A program made the position numbers and the translations under genes. The notes under the pieces are model-generated. The model was given only the letters and a program-made list of their open reading frames with translations. It did no database searches and was not told where the DNA came from. A DNA stretch of 64,000 nt. Origin: Verrucomicrobium sp. GAS474 (lineage in GTDB: Bacteria > Verrucomicrobiota > Verrucomicrobiia > Methylacidiphilales > GAS474). Of the stretch, positions 38,607-48,434 are shown piece after piece; position 1 is the first letter of the stretch; the number at the start of each line of letters is the position of its first letter. The stretch covers positions 2,170,001-2,234,000 of the forward strand of contig NZ_LT629781.1 in NCBI RefSeq assembly GCF_900105685.1. The letters run 5' to 3'.

Positions 38607-39299
38607 CTATTTCCCCAGCATCCCATCCATCGCCTCACTCCACATCTTGTACCCTTCCGGGGAGAGATGGAATCGATCCGGGGCGAGCCCCTGCCACGTC
38701 TTCCCCTCCCGGTCGGGCGTCATCTTGCCGGGTAGGTCGACGTAGAACGTTTCCTTCCCATCGGCCAGGGTTTGGAGTGCCGCGTTCACGGCCTGCGTCG
38801 TTTTGTCGGCGCGGGCGTTGTGGGGGAGGCCGACGAGGAGGGTGCGGGCTTGGGGGAAGAGGAGGCGGCTGCGGGCCTGGACGGCCTGAATGCCCTCGAC
38901 GATGGCTTCGGGCGGATGGACGGTATCGTTCGTCCCGATGAGGATCACGACATTGCGGATGGGCGGAGCGAAGGGGGAGAGATCGATTTGGGTCATCCGC
39001 CAGAGGAGATGCTCGGTGCCGTCCCCGGCGAGGCCGAAGTTCAGCGCCCGGTCGGCGTAGGATTGCTTCCAGAGCGGCAGGCCGCCGTCGGGGCGGAGCC
39101 ATTCCTCGGTGAGGGCGTCGCCGAGGAAAATCGTGTCGATCTGCTTCCCCTTCGCCTCCTCGACCCGTCGGGCGGACGCGGCGAACCACTGGGGGAAGGC
39201 CTTCGCGTTGGCGTCGCTCGGGATCGCCGTCGTCGGCTGGGCCGAAAGGGGGAACGCCAGCGCAGCCAGGAGGAAGGCGGCCGGGAGGAGTGCGTTCAC
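38607..39299 (-). CDS. SGNH/GDSL-fold exported protein with Ala in place of the catalytic Ser
   Basis: 230 aa, GTG start, signal peptide at residues 4-21 (LLPAAFLLAALAFPLSAQ). SGNH blocks are recognisable: block I IFLGDALTEEW, block II NFGLAGDGTEHLLWR (Gly), block III VILIGTNDT (Asn), block V DRFHLSPEGY (Asp and His). Block I should read GDS with the nucleophile Ser, but here the codon at 39116-39114 is GCC, so residue 62 is Ala. With Ser lost the protein should be inactive as a hydrolase and may act as a carbohydrate- or ligand-binding protein. It resembles the PAF-acetylhydrolase-like group. It lies 32 bp after the second giant permease and may belong to that operon. Confidence 0.85.
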   Translation of the reverse strand: MNALLPAAFLLAALAFPLSAQPTTAIPSDANAKAFPQWFAASARRVEEAKGKQIDTIFLGDALTEEWLRPDGGLPLWKQSYADRALNFGLAGDGTEHLLWRMTQIDLSPFAPPIRNVVILIGTNDTVHPPEAIVEGIQAVQARSRLLFPQARTLLVGLPHNARADKTTQAVNAALQTLADGKETFYVDLPGKMTPDREGKTWQGLAPDRFHLSPEGYKMWSEAMDGMLGK

Positions 39300-39331: not shown

Positions 39332-42300
39332 TCAATCCGTCGGGGACTTCGCCTTCTGCCACGCCTCGTAGGCGGCCTTCGCCTTCGGGTTCCCGGCGTT
39401 GGCCAGTTCCTTCAGGCAGTTCCCGGCCTGGTTCCAGAATTTCTTCTTCGCCGGATCGGCGAGGACGGCGGCGACGAAGTCGACCGCCTTCGGGTTCCCC
39501 TTCTGGACCGCTTCCCACAGGGCGTCGATCGTGGCGGGGAGTGTCCAGCCGTTCTTCTCGTAGCGGAGCAGGGTCTCGACAGCCTCGTCGTTCCCGTCGG
39601 CGGCGGCCATCTTGTACCCCTGGGGGACGAAGCGGCGGAGCCGTTCCTTCGTGTTCATCTGGCGGAGGACGGGGAAGGCGGTCTCCGGGGTCTTCCGAGC
39701 CTCCTCGCGGATCGCACCAGCGGCGTTCCAGGCGAGATTCGTCAGGTTTTCCAGCCGCTTCGGATCGGCAGCGGGATCGATACCGTCGCTGAGACGGGCC
39801 AGAAGCGCGTCCATTTCATCGACGGCGGCGAGGTCGCCCCAGGCGGCGCGGATGCCGAGGTCCTTCATGTGATCCTCGGGTTTCTGCCACGGCTCGTCGG
39901 GGCCGGGAGGGGCGGGATCGCGGGTGGCGAGGAAGCGACCGAGGCGGATGTCGAAGGCGAGGCGGGCCTTGTTGGCGGCATACCACTCGACGAGCGCCCC
40001 GTCGAGGAGGTTGCCCGGGCAGGCCGTCCGGTTGTTGAAGAGGTTGCGGGCCGTGTTCTTGATGTTCTGCTGCTTCTCCTTTTCCTTCGGGTCGGCGGGG
40101 AGGGGTTCGGCGAGGATCTCGACGGTGCGGTCGAGGGCGTCGGGGAGGCCCCATTCGAGGGCGGTGCCGAGGAAGGACGATTCCTGGTCGGTCCCCCGCT
40201 TCTGTTTCCACACCTTCTCGACCGAGCCGGCGACGAGGGGCCCGGGGAGGGCTCGGAGGTTGCGGTAGAGATTGGAGTCGAAGTCGGAGCTGCCGAACTG
40301 CTTTTTGTCGAGCGACCGGTTTTCGGTCCAGGTGAAGAGGAGGTCGTAGCTGGCGGGATCGCGGAGGGAGGCGACGGCCTGAACCCAGCGGTGATGGGGC
40401 GCGGTCTGCGAATACAGGTTGCGGAAGTCGGTCTTCGCGTTGCCTAGGGCCTCCAGGATGAAGGGCTCGGCCTCCTTCTCCCATCCGTTGTGGAGGATGG
40501 CGTCGATCAGGTCGGGATGGGCGGCGAGGATGCGGAAGGTCATTTTCTTCGCCACCTCGTTGGGCTCGGCCTTGAAGTCGAGGCGGTTGAAGGCGCGGAC
40601 GGGATACCAGTCGAGGAAGCCCCGCTCCATCGCGATGAGGAGCTGGTCGGCATTGGCGGGGCCGACTTTCTGGAGGAGGGCGATCTGGGGATCATCATCG
40701 CGGAGGCTTTCGGGGGTGGCGAGGCCTGCGATGGCGCGGATGTACTGCCAGGCCTCACTCCGGCTCGGGTGCTCGGGAAGGGGGGCGATCTTGGAGAGGG
40801 CGTCGCTCATCGCCTTCCGGCGCCGGACCTCTTCCCAGGTGGGCAGGGTATGGCCGTCGAGGGCGAAGTTCGGCAGCTCCATCCGTTCCTCGAAGATCTT
40901 GCCCCGCTGACTCTCGAGGCGGACGAGGGTGGCGTCGGCCAGCCATGCGGCGTCGACGGGGACGATGAAGTGGAGGCTGATTCGCATCGAGCCCATGTTC
41001 TCGTCGAGCTGCTTGCCGAGGAGGGAAAAGGCGCTGGTATTCTCGATCTGTTCCCCTGCGGGCAGGAGGGTGCGAAGGCCGACGACGAAGCCGGAAGCGG
41101 AATCGACGCTCCGCGCATCAAAAGGCTGCCGGTCGGCCTCAAGGACCATGGCTTCCCCGCGCTTGCGGTTGACGAGGGCGTAGTGGGTCGAGAACGCGCC
41201 ATGCGTGTAGCTGGAGGGGCGGAGCCGCAGGTAGACGGCCCGGACCTCGAAGCCGACGGCGACGCTATTCGAGTTCGAGCGGACCTCAGTGATCGTGGTG
41301 CGGGTCGAGCCGTCGCTGAAGCCTTCCCCCTTCTTCAGCGGCACTTCGTTGGCGATGTGGTAGCCGATGGCGGAACACTTGAACGTGAAGGAAGCCTTCC
41401 CGGCGGTTTCCAGGTGGGAGGCGTAGTAGGCCGGGTCGAGGGAGAAGAGGGAGACGTTGAGGTTCTCGCTCTGGCTGAGGGGCGAGAAGGGGGTGACGTT
41501 GAGGAAGGGGATGTTGCCGAGGGCCTCCTCAAGGACGGCGGCGGTGGTCGAAAAGGTGGGGCTGCCGAGGGAGGAAAGAGCGATCGTTGAGCCGTCGGCC
41601 AGGGTGAGGGTCCCTCCCAGGCTCTGGATGAAGAGGGCCTGCTTCGGCTTGAGGCCCGAGACCTCCAGCGTGGTGTTCACGATCTTCTGCATGGGGGTGT
41701 TGGGGCCGCCCTCGTTTCCCTCGTAGACGTTATGGTTCCCGCCCGGCGCGATCTGGATGGAGTCGGGGGAGAGGTTGAGCTCGGGATCGACGGCGGCGGA
41801 CTCAGGGGCGCGGAGGAAGTCCCAGAACCAGAATTTGGGAATCTCGGCGGCGGCGAGGAGGCCGACTCCGGCCAGGACGAGGGAGATCCGGGTGCGGCGG
41901 GTGAGGTATTGGAAGAAGAGGATGCCGAGGGCGAAGAGGATGTGGAGGAGGTCGCCGACGACGCCCCGGCAGACGGGGAGGGTGAAGGAGACGCTGTCAG
42001 CGAAGGTGGCGGGGGTCGGCTTTGCGTGAAGCTGGGTGATCCAGCCGAAGAGCCAATCGCTGAAATATTGGAGGGTGAAGAAGACGACGGCGACGATGAC
42101 AAAGCGGCCGAAGCTGGGGCTCAGCACGGCGAGGACGGCGGCGAGGGTGATCCAGCGGAGCTGGCTCAGGGCGATCTGGAGACCGGCCAGCGCCACGTCT
42201 CCCGGGAGGACGTGGTGGGCGAGGAGGACGGCGCATTGGCCGAGGACGGGGAGGAGGAAGAGAAGGCCGAGGGCGATCAGCTTGCTCCCGAGGACGGTGG

Positions 42301-42571
42301 CCCGGGGGAGGGGGCGGGTGAGCCAGAAGGCGGAGACGCCGACGGTCGGCTCCTGGAGGAGGAGGGCGGGGATGAGGACGAGGAGGAGGAGGGAGTTGAG
42401 CATCGGCACCATCGCGGCGATCTGGGCGTAGGTGCGGGAGGCCGGGCTCTCCCCCGGCCGGAGGTCGACTCCGGCGAGAGCGAACTGGAGGATCGTGAAG
42501 AAGGCCCAGAGGGCCCAGAGGATCCAGGTCTGGCGGAAGTCTTTCTTGAACTGGTGGACGAGGAGGTTCAT
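39332..42571 (-). CDS. Large ABC-2-type permease with extended soluble domain (1079 aa)
   Basis: 1079 aa. Six membrane helices in the first ~270 residues start with LVHQFKKDFRQTWILWALWAF and include LLLQEPTVGVSAFWLTRPLPRATVLGSKL, the ABC-2 permease signature loop. The remaining ~800 residues are soluble, with a beta-rich part (270-560) and helical sequence at the C-terminus. It is a clear paralogue of the 1498-aa neighbour: both share the helix block, the motif VNRKRGEA and the C-terminal GNPKAVDFVA/AKAAY segments. It has only one clear unit similar to the neighbour's 61-residue repeats. ATG 42571 overlaps the upstream stop by four bases. The substrate is unknown. Confidence 0.85.
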   Translation of the reverse strand: MNLLVHQFKKDFRQTWILWALWAFFTILQFALAGVDLRPGESPASRTYAQIAAMVPMLNSLLLLVLIPALLLQEPTVGVSAFWLTRPLPRATVLGSKLIALGLLFLLPVLGQCAVLLAHHVLPGDVALAGLQIALSQLRWITLAAVLAVLSPSFGRFVIVAVVFFTLQYFSDWLFGWITQLHAKPTPATFADSVSFTLPVCRGVVGDLLHILFALGILFFQYLTRRTRISLVLAGVGLLAAAEIPKFWFWDFLRAPESAAVDPELNLSPDSIQIAPGGNHNVYEGNEGGPNTPMQKIVNTTLEVSGLKPKQALFIQSLGGTLTLADGSTIALSSLGSPTFSTTAAVLEEALGNIPFLNVTPFSPLSQSENLNVSLFSLDPAYYASHLETAGKASFTFKCSAIGYHIANEVPLKKGEGFSDGSTRTTITEVRSNSNSVAVGFEVRAVYLRLRPSSYTHGAFSTHYALVNRKRGEAMVLEADRQPFDARSVDSASGFVVGLRTLLPAGEQIENTSAFSLLGKQLDENMGSMRISLHFIVPVDAAWLADATLVRLESQRGKIFEERMELPNFALDGHTLPTWEEVRRRKAMSDALSKIAPLPEHPSRSEAWQYIRAIAGLATPESLRDDDPQIALLQKVGPANADQLLIAMERGFLDWYPVRAFNRLDFKAEPNEVAKKMTFRILAAHPDLIDAILHNGWEKEAEPFILEALGNAKTDFRNLYSQTAPHHRWVQAVASLRDPASYDLLFTWTENRSLDKKQFGSSDFDSNLYRNLRALPGPLVAGSVEKVWKQKRGTDQESSFLGTALEWGLPDALDRTVEILAEPLPADPKEKEKQQNIKNTARNLFNNRTACPGNLLDGALVEWYAANKARLAFDIRLGRFLATRDPAPPGPDEPWQKPEDHMKDLGIRAAWGDLAAVDEMDALLARLSDGIDPAADPKRLENLTNLAWNAAGAIREEARKTPETAFPVLRQMNTKERLRRFVPQGYKMAAADGNDEAVETLLRYEKNGWTLPATIDALWEAVQKGNPKAVDFVAAVLADPAKKKFWNQAGNCLKELANAGNPKAKAAYEAWQKAKSPTD

Positions 42572-45500
42572 CGGGGGGTGGAGGGGGTCGGGTTGGGAAG
42601 GGGATTCTGGGAGAGGGTGCGGTAGGCGGCCTTGGCCTTTTCATTGCCGTTGTTCGCGGCGGCGCGGAGCTGGCCGAGGGCGTCGTTCAGGATTTTTTCG
42701 TCGGCGTTGGGGTCGTTGCGGAGCCCGGCGACGAAGTCGACGGCGACGGGGTTTCCCTTCCGCGTGGCGTTGGCGAGGTGGAAGAGGACGTCGGCGAGGG
42801 CGAGCTGCCGTTTCTGGTAATGGATGAGGGCATCGAGCGCGGTCTCGTTCCCCCGTTCGGCGGCCCGGCTGAAGGCGATCGGGACGAAGGGGCGGAGGGC
42901 TTCCTTTGTCGAGGCGTAGTCGAGGACGCGGAGAATGTCGGGGTTGAAGGCGTAGGGGGGCGGCTCCGGGGCGGGAGGGGCGTCGTCGGTGGTGTCGTTG
43001 TTCTTGGCGAAGCCGAGGGGCTTCGGCGGCTCGGGCGGGGTCTTCGGGACGGCTTCGTCCCGGAGGACGCCGAAGGTGATGAAGGCGAGTTCGCGGGCGC
43101 GGGCGGCGACGTTGCCGCCGAGCTTCGGATCGGCTCCCTCCCGGGCGCGGGCGAGGGCGGCTTCGACTTCGTCGAGGGCGGCGGTCTCTCCTTTTGCGGC
43201 CCGCGTGCCGAGATTTTTGAAGTAATCGTTGGAGGCGGGCCACGGCGCGTTGGGAGGGAGGAGGCGGGGATGGAGGACGAAGCGGCCGAGGATCGGATCG
43301 AAGGCGTACTTCGCCTTGTTGGCCGCGTACCAGGCGGGAATGTCCTCGTCGAGGAGGGTGCTGGGAACGGGAATGGTGAACCGGAGGACGCGGAGGGCCC
43401 AGTCCCGATGGGTGTCGCGAATGTATTTCTCCTTCTTGGTCTTGCCGGGAGGTTCGGAGAGGAGCTCGATCGCGCGGTCGAGGGCGTCGGGGAGGCCCCA
43501 CTCGGCGGCGGTCGTGATCACCTGGCCCTCGTCCCAGGTCGTCCGGTTGAGGTTCCAGAACTTCTCCACCCGCGCGGCGACGACGGGGCCGGGGAGGGCG
43601 CGGAGGTCGTTGAAGACGGTGTTGTAGTTGAAGTAGACCCGCTCGGCGTAGTCGAGGAGGACGTCGTAGGTGTCGGGGGCGCGGAGGGAGGCGAGGGCCT
43701 GGACCCAGAACCTGTCAATGCCCTGGCCCGCGCGGACGGCGGCGATGGCGGCGACGAGGGTCGGCTTCGCCTCGGCTTCCCAATGGTGGTCGACGACGGG
43801 GGAGATGGCGTGGGAGTTCGCCGGAAGGGAGCGGAGGACGGCTTCCTTCACGCCGGGGCGGTCGCCGAAGGTATTGAGGAGATCGAACCACCTGTCGTTA
43901 TAACGGGTGTTCGGTTTCCGTTCGGTGAGGGTCTGCAGGACGATCGGGAAAGCCTCGTTCTCCCAATGGTTCTGGAGGATGATCTCGATGATCCGCTGGT
44001 TCGAGGGGAGGAGTCGGAGGAGGAGGGCCTTCGTCTCTGGATCGTCGGGGTAGGAGGCGAGGAACTGCATCCACTTCCAGGGGAACTCCCGGTCGGGCTT
44101 CGAGCGGGCGATCTCGTCGAGGAGGATTGGCTTCGCGTCGGCCATCCATCCGGCGTCGACGACGGCGTCGACGGCGTCCTCCTCCCACGGCAGGACGTGG
44201 AGGACGGCCCGCTTCGCATCGGGGTCGTCGGGATAGGAGGCGAGGAATTTCATCCACTTCGCGTTGAAGTTCCGCTCCGGCTTCGCCTCGGAGACGGCGG
44301 CGAGGATGATCGGCTTCGCGTCGGCCTCCCAATGGCGCTCGAGGACGATGCCGATCTGGTCCTGGTTCGTCTGGAGGGCGCGAAGGATCGAGGCCTTTAC
44401 GGCGCTGTCGTCGTGGAAGCCGTCGAGGACGCGGACCCAGCGGTTGTCGACGTTGTCGCCCGGCTTCTTCGCGGCGATGGCGGCGATGAGGATCGGCTTG
44501 GCCTCGGTCTCCCAATGGTTCTCGACGACGGCGTCGATGGCTTCGGCGTTGTTCGGCAGGATGCGGAGGAGGGCGGCCTTCACCGCGGGATCGGCGGCGA
44601 AGCCGGAGAGGCTCCTGATCCAGTCGTTGTCGAACCGGGCGTCGGACTTCGCGTTGGCGATGGCGTCGAGGAGGATCGGCTTCGCCTCGGCCTCCCAATG
44701 GTGGTCGAGGATGAAGTGGCCGATGTTGCCCTGGTCGGGGAGGAGGGCGAGGAAGGCGTCCTTCACCTCCTTGTCGTCGTGAAGGGAGTCGAGGGCCTGG
44801 AGCCAGCGGTAGTCGATATTCTCGTGACGCTCCCGCTCGGCGAGCTTGCGGAGGAGGATCGGCTTGGCGTCCTCTTCCCAGTGGTTCGGGTGGAGGAGGT
44901 CGACGAGTTCGGTGTGGGCGGGGAGGAGGCGGAAGAGCATCGCCTGGGTGCCGGGCGGGGATTGCCGGAGATCGAGGGCCTCGAGGGCCTCGCGGACGTA
45001 TTGCTGGTTCACGTTCACGAAGATGCCGTAGGCGATGAGGAGTTCCTGCGCATGGGCTGGGCTGACGGCGGCGAGCATCGAGACCTGGAGGCTCTTGTCC
45101 TGGTTGTTCCTCTGGCGGCCCGAGACGGCGGCGACGCGGAGGATGTATTTCCAGACCTCGGCGCGGGTGGGGTTCGGCGGGAGGACGATCTGGCGGAGGG
45201 TGGCGGGATCGACGTAATCGGGGTGGGTCTCCTCGTAGTTGGGGAGGGTATGGCCGTCGAGGGCGAACTCCGGGAGGGAGAGGGGGAGGGTGAAGGTGGC
45301 GTCGGGAGCCGGTTCGAGGCGGACGAGGACGGCGTCGGCGAGCCACGCGTCGTCGATGGGGACGGGGAGGATGGCGTTGCGATCGGGGGAGGGGGTGCCG
45401 AAGGTGAGGACGGAGGGGAAGGTGGTCTCGAAGGGGATGCCGCCGAGGGCGACCTTCGAGAGGAGCGGGTTCGCCGCGTTCCTCGGGCCGGGGGACACCC

Positions 45501-47064
45501 GGTCGGCGATGTAGTTGTTGTAGCCGTTGCCGTCGTTGGTCTGGATTGCCTCGCCCCGTTTTCGGTTCACGAGGAGGTAGACGGGGGGGCGGCCGCTGGT
45601 ATCGGGCCGGAGGGGCTGGAAGAGGAGGGAAAGGGTCCGCTCCCGGAGGGTGAGGGAGATGCCTTCGCCTTGATCGGCGCGGCGGGATGCCCAGGCGGCG
45701 TTGCTGGGAGGCGCGGGCTCGGTCTTCGGCTTGTGGACTTCGACGAGGGTGAGGCGATGCGATCCCCACGCGGCCACGGCTCCAGCCTTCAGCGGCAGTT
45801 CGGCGGTGATGCGGTAGGAGGCGGCCCTACCGTTGAGGCGGAAGGTGGCGGCGCCGAGTTTCTTCTCGTTCTTGTCGTAGGTCTCTCCGTCGAGGGTGAA
45901 GAGATCGAAGAGGTTCGCGGTTTGCTCGAGCCAGAGGTGGCTGTTGAGGAGCGGCAGATGGCCGATGGCGGCTTCAAAGGGGAGGGACTGATCGTTGCCG
46001 CCGTAGCCGATGCTGCCAGAGGAAAAAATGCCGGAGAACTCCCACATGGTCCGCATTGTCGGCAGCGGCAGACGGCTGCCGTCGGGGTAGACGATCTCGC
46101 CTCCCTCGGAGGTGAAGGAGAGGGCTTGGTCGAGGGGGTAGGGAGTCGGGAACAGGTTGATGCTGAGGCTCTTCAACGGTCCCTTTTTCGGGTCGGCCTG
46201 GGTGCTGAGGTTGTGATTCCCATCGGGCTGGACGCGGAGGCCGGAGGCGTCGAAGGCGGTGGGCGCGGGCAGGGCGGCGACGAGGGGGTCGACGAAGTCC
46301 CACGGCCAGTAGCGGAGGGCGGTTTCGGAGAGGACGAATCCGGCGACGGCGCAGACGAGGGCGATGCGGGTCCGGCGCGTCGTGTATTGGAAGAGGAGGA
46401 CGCCGAGGCAGAAGAGGATGCGGAGGAGGTCGGAGGCGATGCTCCGGCTTTGGTAGAGGAAGGGATGGGCGAGCGGGTCGGCGGGGGAGAAGGACGGGGT
46501 GACGGGATGGACCTTCAGGAGGAGGGTGGCGATGCCGCTCCAGATCCAGTCCCCGAACATCTGCGCGGCGTAGAGGATGGCGGCGGCGATGAGGAACTGG
46601 CCGAAGTTGGCGCAGAAGACGGCGAGGGCGGTCCCCGTGGCGATCCAGCTCAGCTCCCTCAGCGCGATCTCGAGCCCGGCGAAGGCGACGTCGCGCGGGA
46701 CGATGTGGTGGGAGGCGAGGACGGCGCACTGGCCGAGGAGGGGGAAGAGGACGAGGAGGAAGAGCGAGGCGAGCTTGCTCCCCAGGACGAAGGTCCGGGG
46801 CATGGGCCGGGTGAGCCACGAGGCGGAGACGCCGACGGCCGGTTCCTGGAGAAGGAGGGCCGGGATGAGGACGAAGAGGATGAGGGAGTGGAGGAGGGGC
46901 AGGGAATCGATGACCTGGCCGTAGAAGCCCTGCCGGACGGGGCTCCACGGATCGACGTTCCACGCGGCGAGGCCGAACTGGACGAGGACGAGGAGAGCCC
47001 AGACGAGCCAGAGGCCCCAGGTTTCCCGGAAATCCTTTTTGAACTGGTGAAGGAAGAGCTTCAT
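42568..47064 (-). CDS. Giant ABC-2-type permease with seven 61-aa repeats (1498 aa)
   Basis: 1498 aa. Helices lie in residues ~15-275 with the signature loop LLLQEPAVGVSASWLTRPMPRTFVLGSKL. A beta-rich part follows (~280-640), containing VNRKRGEA. Then seven 61-residue tandem repeats run from residue 733 to 1159, with a degenerate unit before them, and a helical C-terminal domain shares GNPVAVDFVAG with the paralogue. The repeats look helical and probably form an alpha-solenoid on the cytoplasmic or extracytoplasmic side (unknown). It is 24 bp downstream of its ATPase and overlaps the paralogous permease by four bases. The length is far above normal for an ABC-2 permease. Confidence 0.88.
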   Translation of the reverse strand: MKLFLHQFKKDFRETWGLWLVWALLVLVQFGLAAWNVDPWSPVRQGFYGQVIDSLPLLHSLILFVLIPALLLQEPAVGVSASWLTRPMPRTFVLGSKLASLFLLVLFPLLGQCAVLASHHIVPRDVAFAGLEIALRELSWIATGTALAVFCANFGQFLIAAAILYAAQMFGDWIWSGIATLLLKVHPVTPSFSPADPLAHPFLYQSRSIASDLLRILFCLGVLLFQYTTRRTRIALVCAVAGFVLSETALRYWPWDFVDPLVAALPAPTAFDASGLRVQPDGNHNLSTQADPKKGPLKSLSINLFPTPYPLDQALSFTSEGGEIVYPDGSRLPLPTMRTMWEFSGIFSSGSIGYGGNDQSLPFEAAIGHLPLLNSHLWLEQTANLFDLFTLDGETYDKNEKKLGAATFRLNGRAASYRITAELPLKAGAVAAWGSHRLTLVEVHKPKTEPAPPSNAAWASRRADQGEGISLTLRERTLSLLFQPLRPDTSGRPPVYLLVNRKRGEAIQTNDGNGYNNYIADRVSPGPRNAANPLLSKVALGGIPFETTFPSVLTFGTPSPDRNAILPVPIDDAWLADAVLVRLEPAPDATFTLPLSLPEFALDGHTLPNYEETHPDYVDPATLRQIVLPPNPTRAEVWKYILRVAAVSGRQRNNQDKSLQVSMLAAVSPAHAQELLIAYGIFVNVNQQYVREALEALDLRQSPPGTQAMLFRLLPAHTELVDLLHPNHWEEDAKPILLRKLAERERHENIDYRWLQALDSLHDDKEVKDAFLALLPDQGNIGHFILDHHWEAEAKPILLDAIANAKSDARFDNDWIRSLSGFAADPAVKAALLRILPNNAEAIDAVVENHWETEAKPILIAAIAAKKPGDNVDNRWVRVLDGFHDDSAVKASILRALQTNQDQIGIVLERHWEADAKPIILAAVSEAKPERNFNAKWMKFLASYPDDPDAKRAVLHVLPWEEDAVDAVVDAGWMADAKPILLDEIARSKPDREFPWKWMQFLASYPDDPETKALLLRLLPSNQRIIEIILQNHWENEAFPIVLQTLTERKPNTRYNDRWFDLLNTFGDRPGVKEAVLRSLPANSHAISPVVDHHWEAEAKPTLVAAIAAVRAGQGIDRFWVQALASLRAPDTYDVLLDYAERVYFNYNTVFNDLRALPGPVVAARVEKFWNLNRTTWDEGQVITTAAEWGLPDALDRAIELLSEPPGKTKKEKYIRDTHRDWALRVLRFTIPVPSTLLDEDIPAWYAANKAKYAFDPILGRFVLHPRLLPPNAPWPASNDYFKNLGTRAAKGETAALDEVEAALARAREGADPKLGGNVAARARELAFITFGVLRDEAVPKTPPEPPKPLGFAKNNDTTDDAPPAPEPPPYAFNPDILRVLDYASTKEALRPFVPIAFSRAAERGNETALDALIHYQKRQLALADVLFHLANATRKGNPVAVDFVAGLRNDPNADEKILNDALGQLRAAANNGNEKAKAAYRTLSQNPLPNPTPSTPR
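43588..44868 (-). repeat. Seven 183-bp coding repeats inside the giant permease gene
   Basis: Seven consecutive units of exactly 61 codons without a single indel, from codon 733 (44868) to codon 1159. The unit pattern is AKPILL-x-AIA...-W-(14 residues)-D-P-x-V-K-x-x-x-L-R-x-LP-...-V-x-x-HWE-x-E. Units differ at many positions, so they are old, and DNA identity between units is partial. The first positions of all units begin AKPI, AFPI or AKPT; each unit ends HWExE or close to it, as in HHWEAE, ENHWETE and ERHWEAD. Confidence 0.9.
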
Positions 47065-47088
47065 GCAGGAGGGAGGCTGCTATGGCGG

Positions 47089-48000
47089 CTAGAGCGTCGG
47101 TTTGATGCGGAAGGTGCGGGCGAGGGCGAGGAAGATCTCGCGCAGGGGCATGGGGCTGACGGTGACGGGGGAGGCGTCGGGGAAGATCTCGGCGACTTTC
47201 TTCTCGGTCTCGCCCGCGACGTATTCCCCGGTGACGAAGCGGACACCGTGTCCGGCGACCTCGGCGACGTACCACGACGCGGGGAGGGAGGCGGGGAGCT
47301 TCCGGTTCTCTTCCTTCACGGTGAACTCGACGCGGCGGAAGCGGCGCTGGAGCGACTCGCTCGCCTCGGAGAGGTGGAGCTTCCCCATGTTGAGGATGCC
47401 GACCCAGTCGGCGAGGCGCTCGACTTCGTCGATGTCGTGGGAGGAGAGGAAGACGGTCCATTTCTCCTGCTCGGAGAGCTCGAGGACGCCCCGGATGAAC
47501 TCGTCCCGCATGAGGGGATCGAGGCCGGAGAAGGGCTCGTCGAGGACGAGGAGGCGGGGGCGGTAGGCGATCGAGGCGAGGAGGGCCGCCTTCATCTTCA
47601 TGCCGCGCGAGAGGTTCTTCAACTTTCTGTCTAACGGAAGCTCGAAACGAGCACGCAATTGATCCGCAAAAGCATCGTCCCAAGTGGGATACATCGGCTT
47701 GCACCAGGCGAGGAAGCGGTCGACGGTCATCGACTCCGGGAGCTGCTGGTTTTCCGAGACGTAGCCGATCTGGGCGAGTTCCTTCGGGCCGAGGGCGGTC
47801 GTGGGGACGCCGAGGACGCGGGCGATCCCGGAGGTGGGGCGCTGGATGTTGAGGAGGGTCTGGATGGTGGTGGTCTTGCCCGCGCCGTTCGGCCCCAGGA
47901 AGGCGTAGATGGCCCCTTCGGGGACGTGGAAGGTGAGGCCGTTGACGGCGTCGTTCTTGCCGTAGCGGCGGGTCAGGTTTTCAGTCTCGATGATGTTCAT
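47089..48000 (-). CDS. ABC transporter ATP-binding protein, YtrB-like
   Basis: 303 aa. Walker A GPNGAGKTT at residues 36-44, signature LSRGMKMKAALLASIAYRP, Walker B LLVLDEPFSGLDPLMRDE and switch histidine SSHDIDEVE. A C-terminal extension of ~90 residues is typical of ABC-2-associated ATPases. It should drive the two large permeases encoded downstream (24-bp gap). The start ATG at 48000 overlaps the GntR-type stop by four bases. The order regulator-ATPase-permeases is that of the B. subtilis ytrA-ytrF-type operons. Confidence 0.92.
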   Translation of the reverse strand: MNIIETENLTRRYGKNDAVNGLTFHVPEGAIYAFLGPNGAGKTTTIQTLLNIQRPTSGIARVLGVPTTALGPKELAQIGYVSENQQLPESMTVDRFLAWCKPMYPTWDDAFADQLRARFELPLDRKLKNLSRGMKMKAALLASIAYRPRLLVLDEPFSGLDPLMRDEFIRGVLELSEQEKWTVFLSSHDIDEVERLADWVGILNMGKLHLSEASESLQRRFRRVEFTVKEENRKLPASLPASWYVAEVAGHGVRFVTGEYVAGETEKKVAEIFPDASPVTVSPMPLREIFLALARTFRIKPTL

Positions 48001-48374
48001 GAGAGGCGTTTCCAGTGGGTTTCGATGGCGTTTTGGATTTCGGAAAGGGAGAGGCGGAGTTTCTTCGCCTCGACGACGACGCGCTCAACCTCGGGGCCGA
48101 GGAGTTCCCCGCGCTGTTGCGGCGTCGATTGCGGCACTTTGCCGACGACGGTCCCGATGCCGGGATGGACTTCGAGGAGGCCCTCGGCGACGAGCGAGGC
48201 GACGACTTTGTGGGCGGTGTTCGGGTTGATCCGCAATTCCTGGCTCAAGGCGCGGACGGAGGGAAAGCGGTCTCCGGGCTGAAGCTGCCCGCTGATCGCC
48301 GCCTTGCGCACCGCATAGGCGAGCTGCTCCGAGACGGGCGCGCCGGGTTTGAATTCGATGGGAAAGGGGAGCAT
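47997..48374 (-). CDS. GntR-family transcriptional regulator, YtrA subfamily
   Basis: 125 aa, the short YtrA form: an N-terminal winged helix (residues ~10-75), PVSEQLAYAVRKAAISGQLQPGDRFPSVRALSQELRINPNTAHKVVASLVAEGLLEV, then only about 50 residues of C-terminal helices, with no large ligand domain. Such regulators usually repress their own ABC operon. A near-palindromic site with GTGTTCTA and TAGGACAC lies 25 bp upstream of the start and overlaps the probable promoter, consistent with autoregulation. It is the first gene of the operon with the ATPase and permeases. Confidence 0.93.
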   Translation of the reverse strand: MLPFPIEFKPGAPVSEQLAYAVRKAAISGQLQPGDRFPSVRALSQELRINPNTAHKVVASLVAEGLLEVHPGIGTVVGKVPQSTPQQRGELLGPEVERVVVEAKKLRLSLSEIQNAIETHWKRLS

Positions 48375-48398
48375 GGCGGGATCGCGGGGGTGATCTTA

Positions 48399-48434
48399 GT
48401 GTTCTAGTTATCATAGGACACCGTGTTTTGTCAA
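48399..48434 (-). promoter_or_regulatory. Promoter and probable operator of the GntR/ABC operon
   Basis: Reading the minus strand: -35 box TTGACA (48434-48429), a 16-bp spacer, and -10 box GATAAC (48412-48407). Overlapping it is an inverted repeat, GTGTTCTAG (48399-48407) against ATAGGACAC (48413-48421), with a five-base centre; seven of nine positions are symmetric. Known YtrA-type operators are also of the GTGT...ACAC kind. A repressor bound here would cover the -10 box. Confidence 0.65.

Follow-up and report, generated by a model that had tools for sequence, protein, structure and literature searches.

An ABC-2-type permease of Verrucomicrobium sp. GAS474 with a HEAT/ARM-like solenoid lengthened by 61-residue units, in an operon under predicted YtrA-type control

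In NosDFY, a system for the maturation of nitrous oxide reductase, a membrane dimer of the ABC-2 type (ABC, ATP-binding cassette) acts together with NosD, a repeat protein located outside the cytoplasm. In MacB, the hydrolysis of ATP is proposed to do work in the periplasm (PMC5985334). Both serve as comparisons for a locus of Verrucomicrobium sp. GAS474, within a stretch of 64,000 nucleotides (NZ_LT629781.1, positions 2,170,001 to 2,234,000 of the forward strand), called here the window, to which all unprefixed coordinates refer. The locus encodes one ATPase and two paralogous ABC-2-type permeases, the first of which (permease 1) carries an alpha-solenoid elongated by tandem units of 61 amino acids (aa). 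The operon resembles YtrGABCDEF of Bacillus subtilis in its YtrA-type GntR repressor, its operator spacing, and its ATPase with two membrane proteins, but it has a single ATPase and no YtrE/F, and the portion of the source available describes no fused solenoid in the B. subtilis system (PMC8060467). The individual parts of the system are of known kinds. A limited literature search found no description of a HEAT solenoid fused to an ABC-2 permease or of its lineage-specific elongation. The features that matter most are these:

42568-47064, minus strand: permease 1, 1498 aa, with an ABC-2-type domain of seven transmembrane (TM) helices, a beta-rich domain, the expanded alpha-solenoid, and a C-terminal helical module (open reading frame, homologues, alignment)
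43045-45255, minus strand: HEAT/ARM-like alpha-solenoid of permease 1, residues 604-1340 (AlphaFold2 model, Foldseek and VIA matches, solenoid hidden Markov model, HMM)
43786-44883, minus strand: six whole 61-residue units of permease 1, a lineage-specific expansion, residues 728-1093 (anchors, HMM, off-diagonal self-match)
43603-43785, minus strand: seventh, half-diverged unit, residues 1094-1154 (HMM match to residues 1094-1129 only)

The periodicity of the array is not a product of chance. Anchors of the form [HG]W[E/M]x[E/D] stand at residues 728, 789, 850, 911, 972, 1033, and 1094, exactly 61 residues apart, and off-diagonal scoring of the protein against itself gives a gapless match at offset 61 over residues 694-1124 (134 of 370 positions identical, about seven units), with harmonics at offsets 122, 183, 244, 305, and 366. 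The first six units share 18-32 of their 61 residues in pairwise comparison (30-52%), free of insertions and deletions, and W2, A6, P8, W27, and L31 are invariant across all seven. An HMM of the unit gives each of the six whole units an E value of 1e-31 to 1e-32 and covers just the first 36 residues of the seventh, but it was trained on the same six units that it scores, so the independent evidence lies in the exact periodicity and in the match to relatives. Those relatives hold the equivalent of one unit, leaving six extra in permease 1, and the seventh unit leads into the normal next solenoid unit of the permease family. At the DNA level, identity at offset 183 is 54%, and Tandem Repeats Finder detected no 183-bp array, the copies being too diverged; together these indicate a diverged expansion rather than an artefact of assembly.

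The original prediction had described seven units of exactly 61 codons at residues 733-1159, each ending in HWExE. The exact spacing and the absence of indels stand, as do most of the anchors, but just half of the last unit resembles the repeat, one anchor reads GWMAD, and the register is better placed at about 694-1124 or 728-1154. The 1079-aa neighbour (39332-42571) does carry one such unit, as had been claimed, and repeat number does differ among relatives: one unit against seven between homologues, plus a separate expansion of a different unit described below.

Positive selection on the units was considered and set aside. Apparent nonsynonymous divergence exceeds synonymous divergence in all pairs, but synonymous sites are near saturation, so no claim is made: a codon-resampling control found the same codon at 249 of 331 sites against 219 +/- 12, and the GC fraction at third codon positions (GC3, 0.84-0.95) makes estimates of synonymous divergence between units unreliable. 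An open frame of 1618 aa also runs antisense to permease 1 (42778-47634, plus strand). It is most likely the mirror effect of the GC-rich third positions and not a gene, because homologues match the minus-strand frame.

What fold do the units build? AlphaFold2, run on residues 590-1498 with 17 relatives, predicts a continuous all-helical solenoid (mean predicted local distance difference test score, pLDDT, 82.9; predicted template modelling score 0.59), in which each 61-residue unit contributes four helices, stacked as alpha-alpha hairpins in a superhelix. The structural matches returned by Foldseek and VIA are karyopherins, beta-catenin, importins, CAND1, and PP2A-A. Sequence searches of Pfam, NCBIfam, and the PDB gave no repeat family above cut-off for permease 1, including the HEAT/ARM models of Pfam, and only a few relatives show sub-threshold matches to HEAT_2 (0.022) and HEAT_PBS (0.099); hence the solenoid is called HEAT/ARM-like. 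It resembles the solenoids of karyopherins, beta-catenin, importin-alpha, and PP2A-A in overall fold but departs from them in its 61-residue four-helix unit, in the lack of a Pfam match above cut-off, and in its predicted place outside the membrane. Profile matches in the PDB to designed helical repeat proteins were set aside as generic helical repeats. The solenoid anticipated in the original prediction is thus borne out by the model and by structure comparison, and the searches turned up no sequence family whose role in permeases of this kind is established. That the solenoid binds a long partner or substrate, as was also proposed, is plausible.

The relatives show how far this arm varies. 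A scan of genome contigs with the whole permease gave no matches, while a search by alignment of the ATPase succeeded and yielded the 80 named relatives that underlie the counts of loci given here. In all 80, the ATPase is directly followed by an open frame, whose length runs from 236 to 1249 aa (a few being wrong frames or broken genes), and the homologues, permease 1 included, range from about 240 to 1498 aa, all on a well-conserved ATPase. Of the 80 loci, 16 have the solenoid in the first permease and eight have it in the second, and solenoid permeases are found in several classes. The 61-aa expansion was found in no other protein among the homologues examined. The only other tandem array within a solenoid in the 80 loci is that of L053 (1022-4771), a same-genus homologue of 1249 aa, where off-diagonal scoring and an HMM reveal three copies of the next solenoid unit (72-79 residues) at about residues 750-950. 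The unit triplicated there differs from the one expanded in permease 1. A tree of the TM and beta regions joins permease 1 to L052 (1048 aa, without an expansion) and the second permease of the window (permease 2) to L053, both with strong support. This grouping, together with the difference between the units, implies two independent elongations in two paralogue lineages. The genus was sampled by two genomes besides that of the window, which itself belongs in or close to the Methylacidiphilales, judged by its kinship to the relatives. At the other extreme, permeases of about 255 aa in Acidobacteriota (L067, L075, L080, L088, and L091) have no soluble domain; they follow the same GntR-ATPase pair and represent a minimal form of the system.

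The arm is built on a core laid out as follows:

46315-47064, minus strand: TM domain of permease 1, residues 1-250, with a TRP motif in the cytoplasmic loop between TM2 and TM3 (hydropathy, loop charges)
45265-46287, minus strand: beta-rich domain of permease 1 after TM7, residues 260-600 (alignment, strands in the paralogue model)
42577-42945, minus strand: C-terminal helical module of permease 1, residues 1374-1496 (homologues, helices in the model)
39332-42571, minus strand: permease 2, the 1079-aa single-unit paralogue (open reading frame, BLAST, alignment, AlphaFold2 with pLDDT 80.8)

The AlphaFold2 model of the whole of permease 2 begins with seven TM helices, which span residues 16-247, continues with a beta-rich region at about 270-570, and ends in a helical part. 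Residues 2-226 of this model match NosY of NosDFY(L) (PDB 7o0y, 7o12, 7znq) with Z 11.4 and 5.0 Å over 213 residues; NosY is the best structural match of the TM domain and occupies the top four rows. The comparison was made on permease 2, and the TM domain of permease 1 was assigned by alignment with it. No ABC2 permease model of Pfam rose above cut-off (PF12730 scored 12.1 and 13.9 bits against a cut-off of 27), so the identification as ABC-2 permeases, which had been made from the sequence at the outset, draws its support from the NosY match and the adjoining ATPase. The seven predicted N-terminal TM helices and the soluble domains that follow TM7 do not fit a transporter of the MacB type; MacB has four TM helices, a periplasmic domain between TM1 and TM2, and a different fold. 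The beta-rich domain is common to short homologues of 550-600 aa. The C-terminal helical module recurs at the end of unrelated proteins, exported or membrane-bound, elsewhere in the Verrucomicrobiota (L011, L029, L031, and L033).

On which side of the membrane the solenoid lies is a matter of topology. Loop charges fit an N-terminus inside, with the TRP loop and the TRRTR loop (TM6-TM7) cytoplasmic, and given seven predicted TM helices, everything after TM7 would lie outside. When 388 genomes of the phylum were searched with a profile, many proved to encode free-standing solenoid proteins, typically of about 330-375 aa, with N-termini that look like Sec or lipoprotein signals (signal peptides were assessed by eye) followed by a coiled-coil-like stretch. 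Examples of these exported proteins are:

L168 5631-7699
L169 4931-6969
L170 5495-6517
L171 5642-6664
L175 5681-6712
L177 5816-6811
L179 6004-7128

The signal is mostly lipoprotein-like, and the proteins are sometimes encoded in tandem pairs. BLAST with the ATPase and GntR protein of the window found no ABC genes in the neighbourhoods examined, where a greedy choice of open frames could have masked a gene overlapped by a longer frame on the opposite strand. Other permeases of the family end in modules of their own. The second permease of Pontiellaceae B12227 closes with a BspA-type leucine-rich repeat array (LRR_5, 5.3e-56; L060 10350-14198 and L173 4125-7973), a permease of candidate division FCPU426 (L081) carries CIA30 (3.2e-6), and a Kiritimatiellales permease has a module with 52% identity to the exported product of a neighbouring gene. 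BspA-type LRR_5 is an extracellular-type module, unusual on an ABC permease, and in the FCPU426 permeases L081 and L095 other C-terminal tails replace the solenoid. The exported homologues of the solenoid and the tails with LRR_5, CIA30, or an exported twin all support an extracytoplasmic C-terminus, and the placement of the solenoid outside the cytoplasmic membrane is well supported, if indirectly. This probable location, the free-standing exported forms of the solenoid, and the variability of the entire tail within the family had all escaped the original prediction.

The remaining elements of the operon are:

48398-48422, minus strand: putative YtrA-type operator GGTGTCCTATGATAACTAGAACACT (GTGT-N15-ACAC; pattern, spacing)
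47997-48374, minus strand: YtrA-type GntR regulator, 125 aa (PF00392, 6e-13)
47089-48000, minus strand: ABC ATPase, 303 aa (PF00005, 4.7e-23)
38607-39299, minus strand: exported SGNH/GDSL hydrolase (PF13472, 1.1e-17)

The genes run in the order GntR, ATPase, permease 1, permease 2, SGNH hydrolase, with overlaps of 4 bp between GntR and ATPase and between the stop of permease 1 and the start of permease 2. The hydrolase gene is probably the last of the operon, and a 66% identical gene occupies the same place at L053. In the ATPase, the Walker A, signature, Walker B, and H-loop motifs are intact, and it is the most conserved part of the system (53-81% identity to orthologues). A GntR gene lies upstream of the ATPase in 79-80 of the 80 relatives. 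A second permease adjoins the first in about 35 loci, some of which may be split frames; two permeases for one ATPase suggest a heterodimer, and permeases 1 and 2 are possible partners in it.

The regulator is short, and the predicted site has widely spaced half-sites, the two features that define the YtrA subfamily. Among 79 relatives, 22 carry GTGT-N15-ACAC ahead of the GntR gene; the other spacings tried gave counts of 0-7. In the window the pattern lies at 48398-48422, the single place in the 3.76-Mb genome where its extended form is present. The spacing equals that of the B. subtilis YtrA site, AGTGTA-13 bp-TACACT (PMC8060467). There is thus good evidence for the predicted YtrA-type control, which by analogy suggests a role in homeostasis of the envelope or of wall precursors.

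Taken together, a varied arm on a retained pump core suggests mechanical or binding work outside the membrane. According to the model put forward here, the ATPase and the two permeases would form a YtrA-repressed ABC-2-type machine of the envelope-stress kind, in which binding and hydrolysis of ATP at the dimer of nucleotide-binding domains would move TM7 and with it the extracytoplasmic arms, much as in NosDFY or MacB. The arms might grip or reshape a partner in the envelope (a protein, a lipoprotein, or a wall precursor), the longer arm of permease 1 might extend the reach or the area available for binding, and the arms' target may also be that of the exported hydrolase. This model stands at about even odds of being right. 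Three points favour it: the ATPase is conserved, but what lies outside the membrane can be swapped, extended, or absent; NosY is the nearest match to the TM fold; and MacB (and, in the proposed principle, LolCDE) provides a precedent for ATP-driven work in the periplasm that is not transport (PMC5985334). Several observations count against it. The movement of the arm and the envelope role are argued by analogy. NosD is a separate beta-helix and not a fused alpha-solenoid, and NosDFY differs further from this operon, which has two different permeases, YtrA-type regulation, and no nos genes. The VIA Z scores of the solenoid (at most 9.7) are of a size that repeat and helical folds attain through a common arrangement, which is what they mean here, kinship not being proven. 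No more than 22 of the 79 upstream regions contain the operator pattern, which was strictly defined. And G001, a 95% complete genome of the genus, has no such permease, which makes the system dispensable.

The main rival is an exporter in the true sense, moving a substrate across the inner membrane to a solenoid that receives it, chaperones it, or hands it on. The ABC-2 fold and intact ATPase would suit it, as would the short homologues that keep the same ATPase and operon with no solenoid, for arms may have been grafted onto a core that is a transporter; nevertheless, in the few relatives where the downstream region was read, no substrate or biosynthesis genes lie nearby, and the tails vary widely on a retained core, making the exporter rather unlikely. 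Perhaps, instead, the solenoid spans part of the periplasm as a spacer or anchor, tethering the complex to the wall, the outer membrane, or lipoproteins, with a length tuned to the distance. One could then understand the exact unit length with its divergent surfaces, the lipoprotein-like standalone relatives, and the two independent elongations, but not so readily why the solenoid of the neighbouring paralogue lacks extra units or why most homologues have a solenoid of a single length, and this account seems improbable.

Less probable again is growth of the array by unequal recombination that was merely tolerated. The array is confined to one protein, and its units have diverged strongly in protein sequence compared with their synonymous sites (estimates that GC3 of 0.84-0.95 makes unreliable), but 30-52% identity with no indel, an invariant core, and a confidently predicted fold speak of a lasting constraint on the fold. 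Finally, known HEAT/ARM proteins are mostly cytosolic, and the typical ABC-2 permease crosses the membrane with six helices and has its C-terminus in the cytoplasm. From such general knowledge one might expect a cytoplasmic solenoid that regulates the ATPase or recruits cytosolic cargo, an expectation that the seven predicted TM helices and the exported homologues of solenoid and tails render very improbable.

If the preferred model, an ATP-driven arm outside the membrane, is extended to the family, the permeases may represent a widespread, as yet undescribed YtrA-regulated ABC-2 class: an extracytoplasmic socket with swappable arms (HEAT-like solenoids, leucine-rich repeats, carbohydrate-binding-like modules) swung by the ATPase, lengthened at times by independent duplication of units, the solenoid occurring elsewhere as separate lipoproteins. 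This wider proposal is tentative and somewhat doubtful. If true, a conserved ABC motor would have been kept while its working part came to be anything from no arm at all, in permeases of about 240-260 aa, to a solenoid of great length. Whether many ABC-2 systems are periplasmic mechanical devices, and not transporters, could then be tested by adding or removing units, and the poorly understood YtrA-type envelope operons would be linked to an identifiable family of extracytoplasmic domains.
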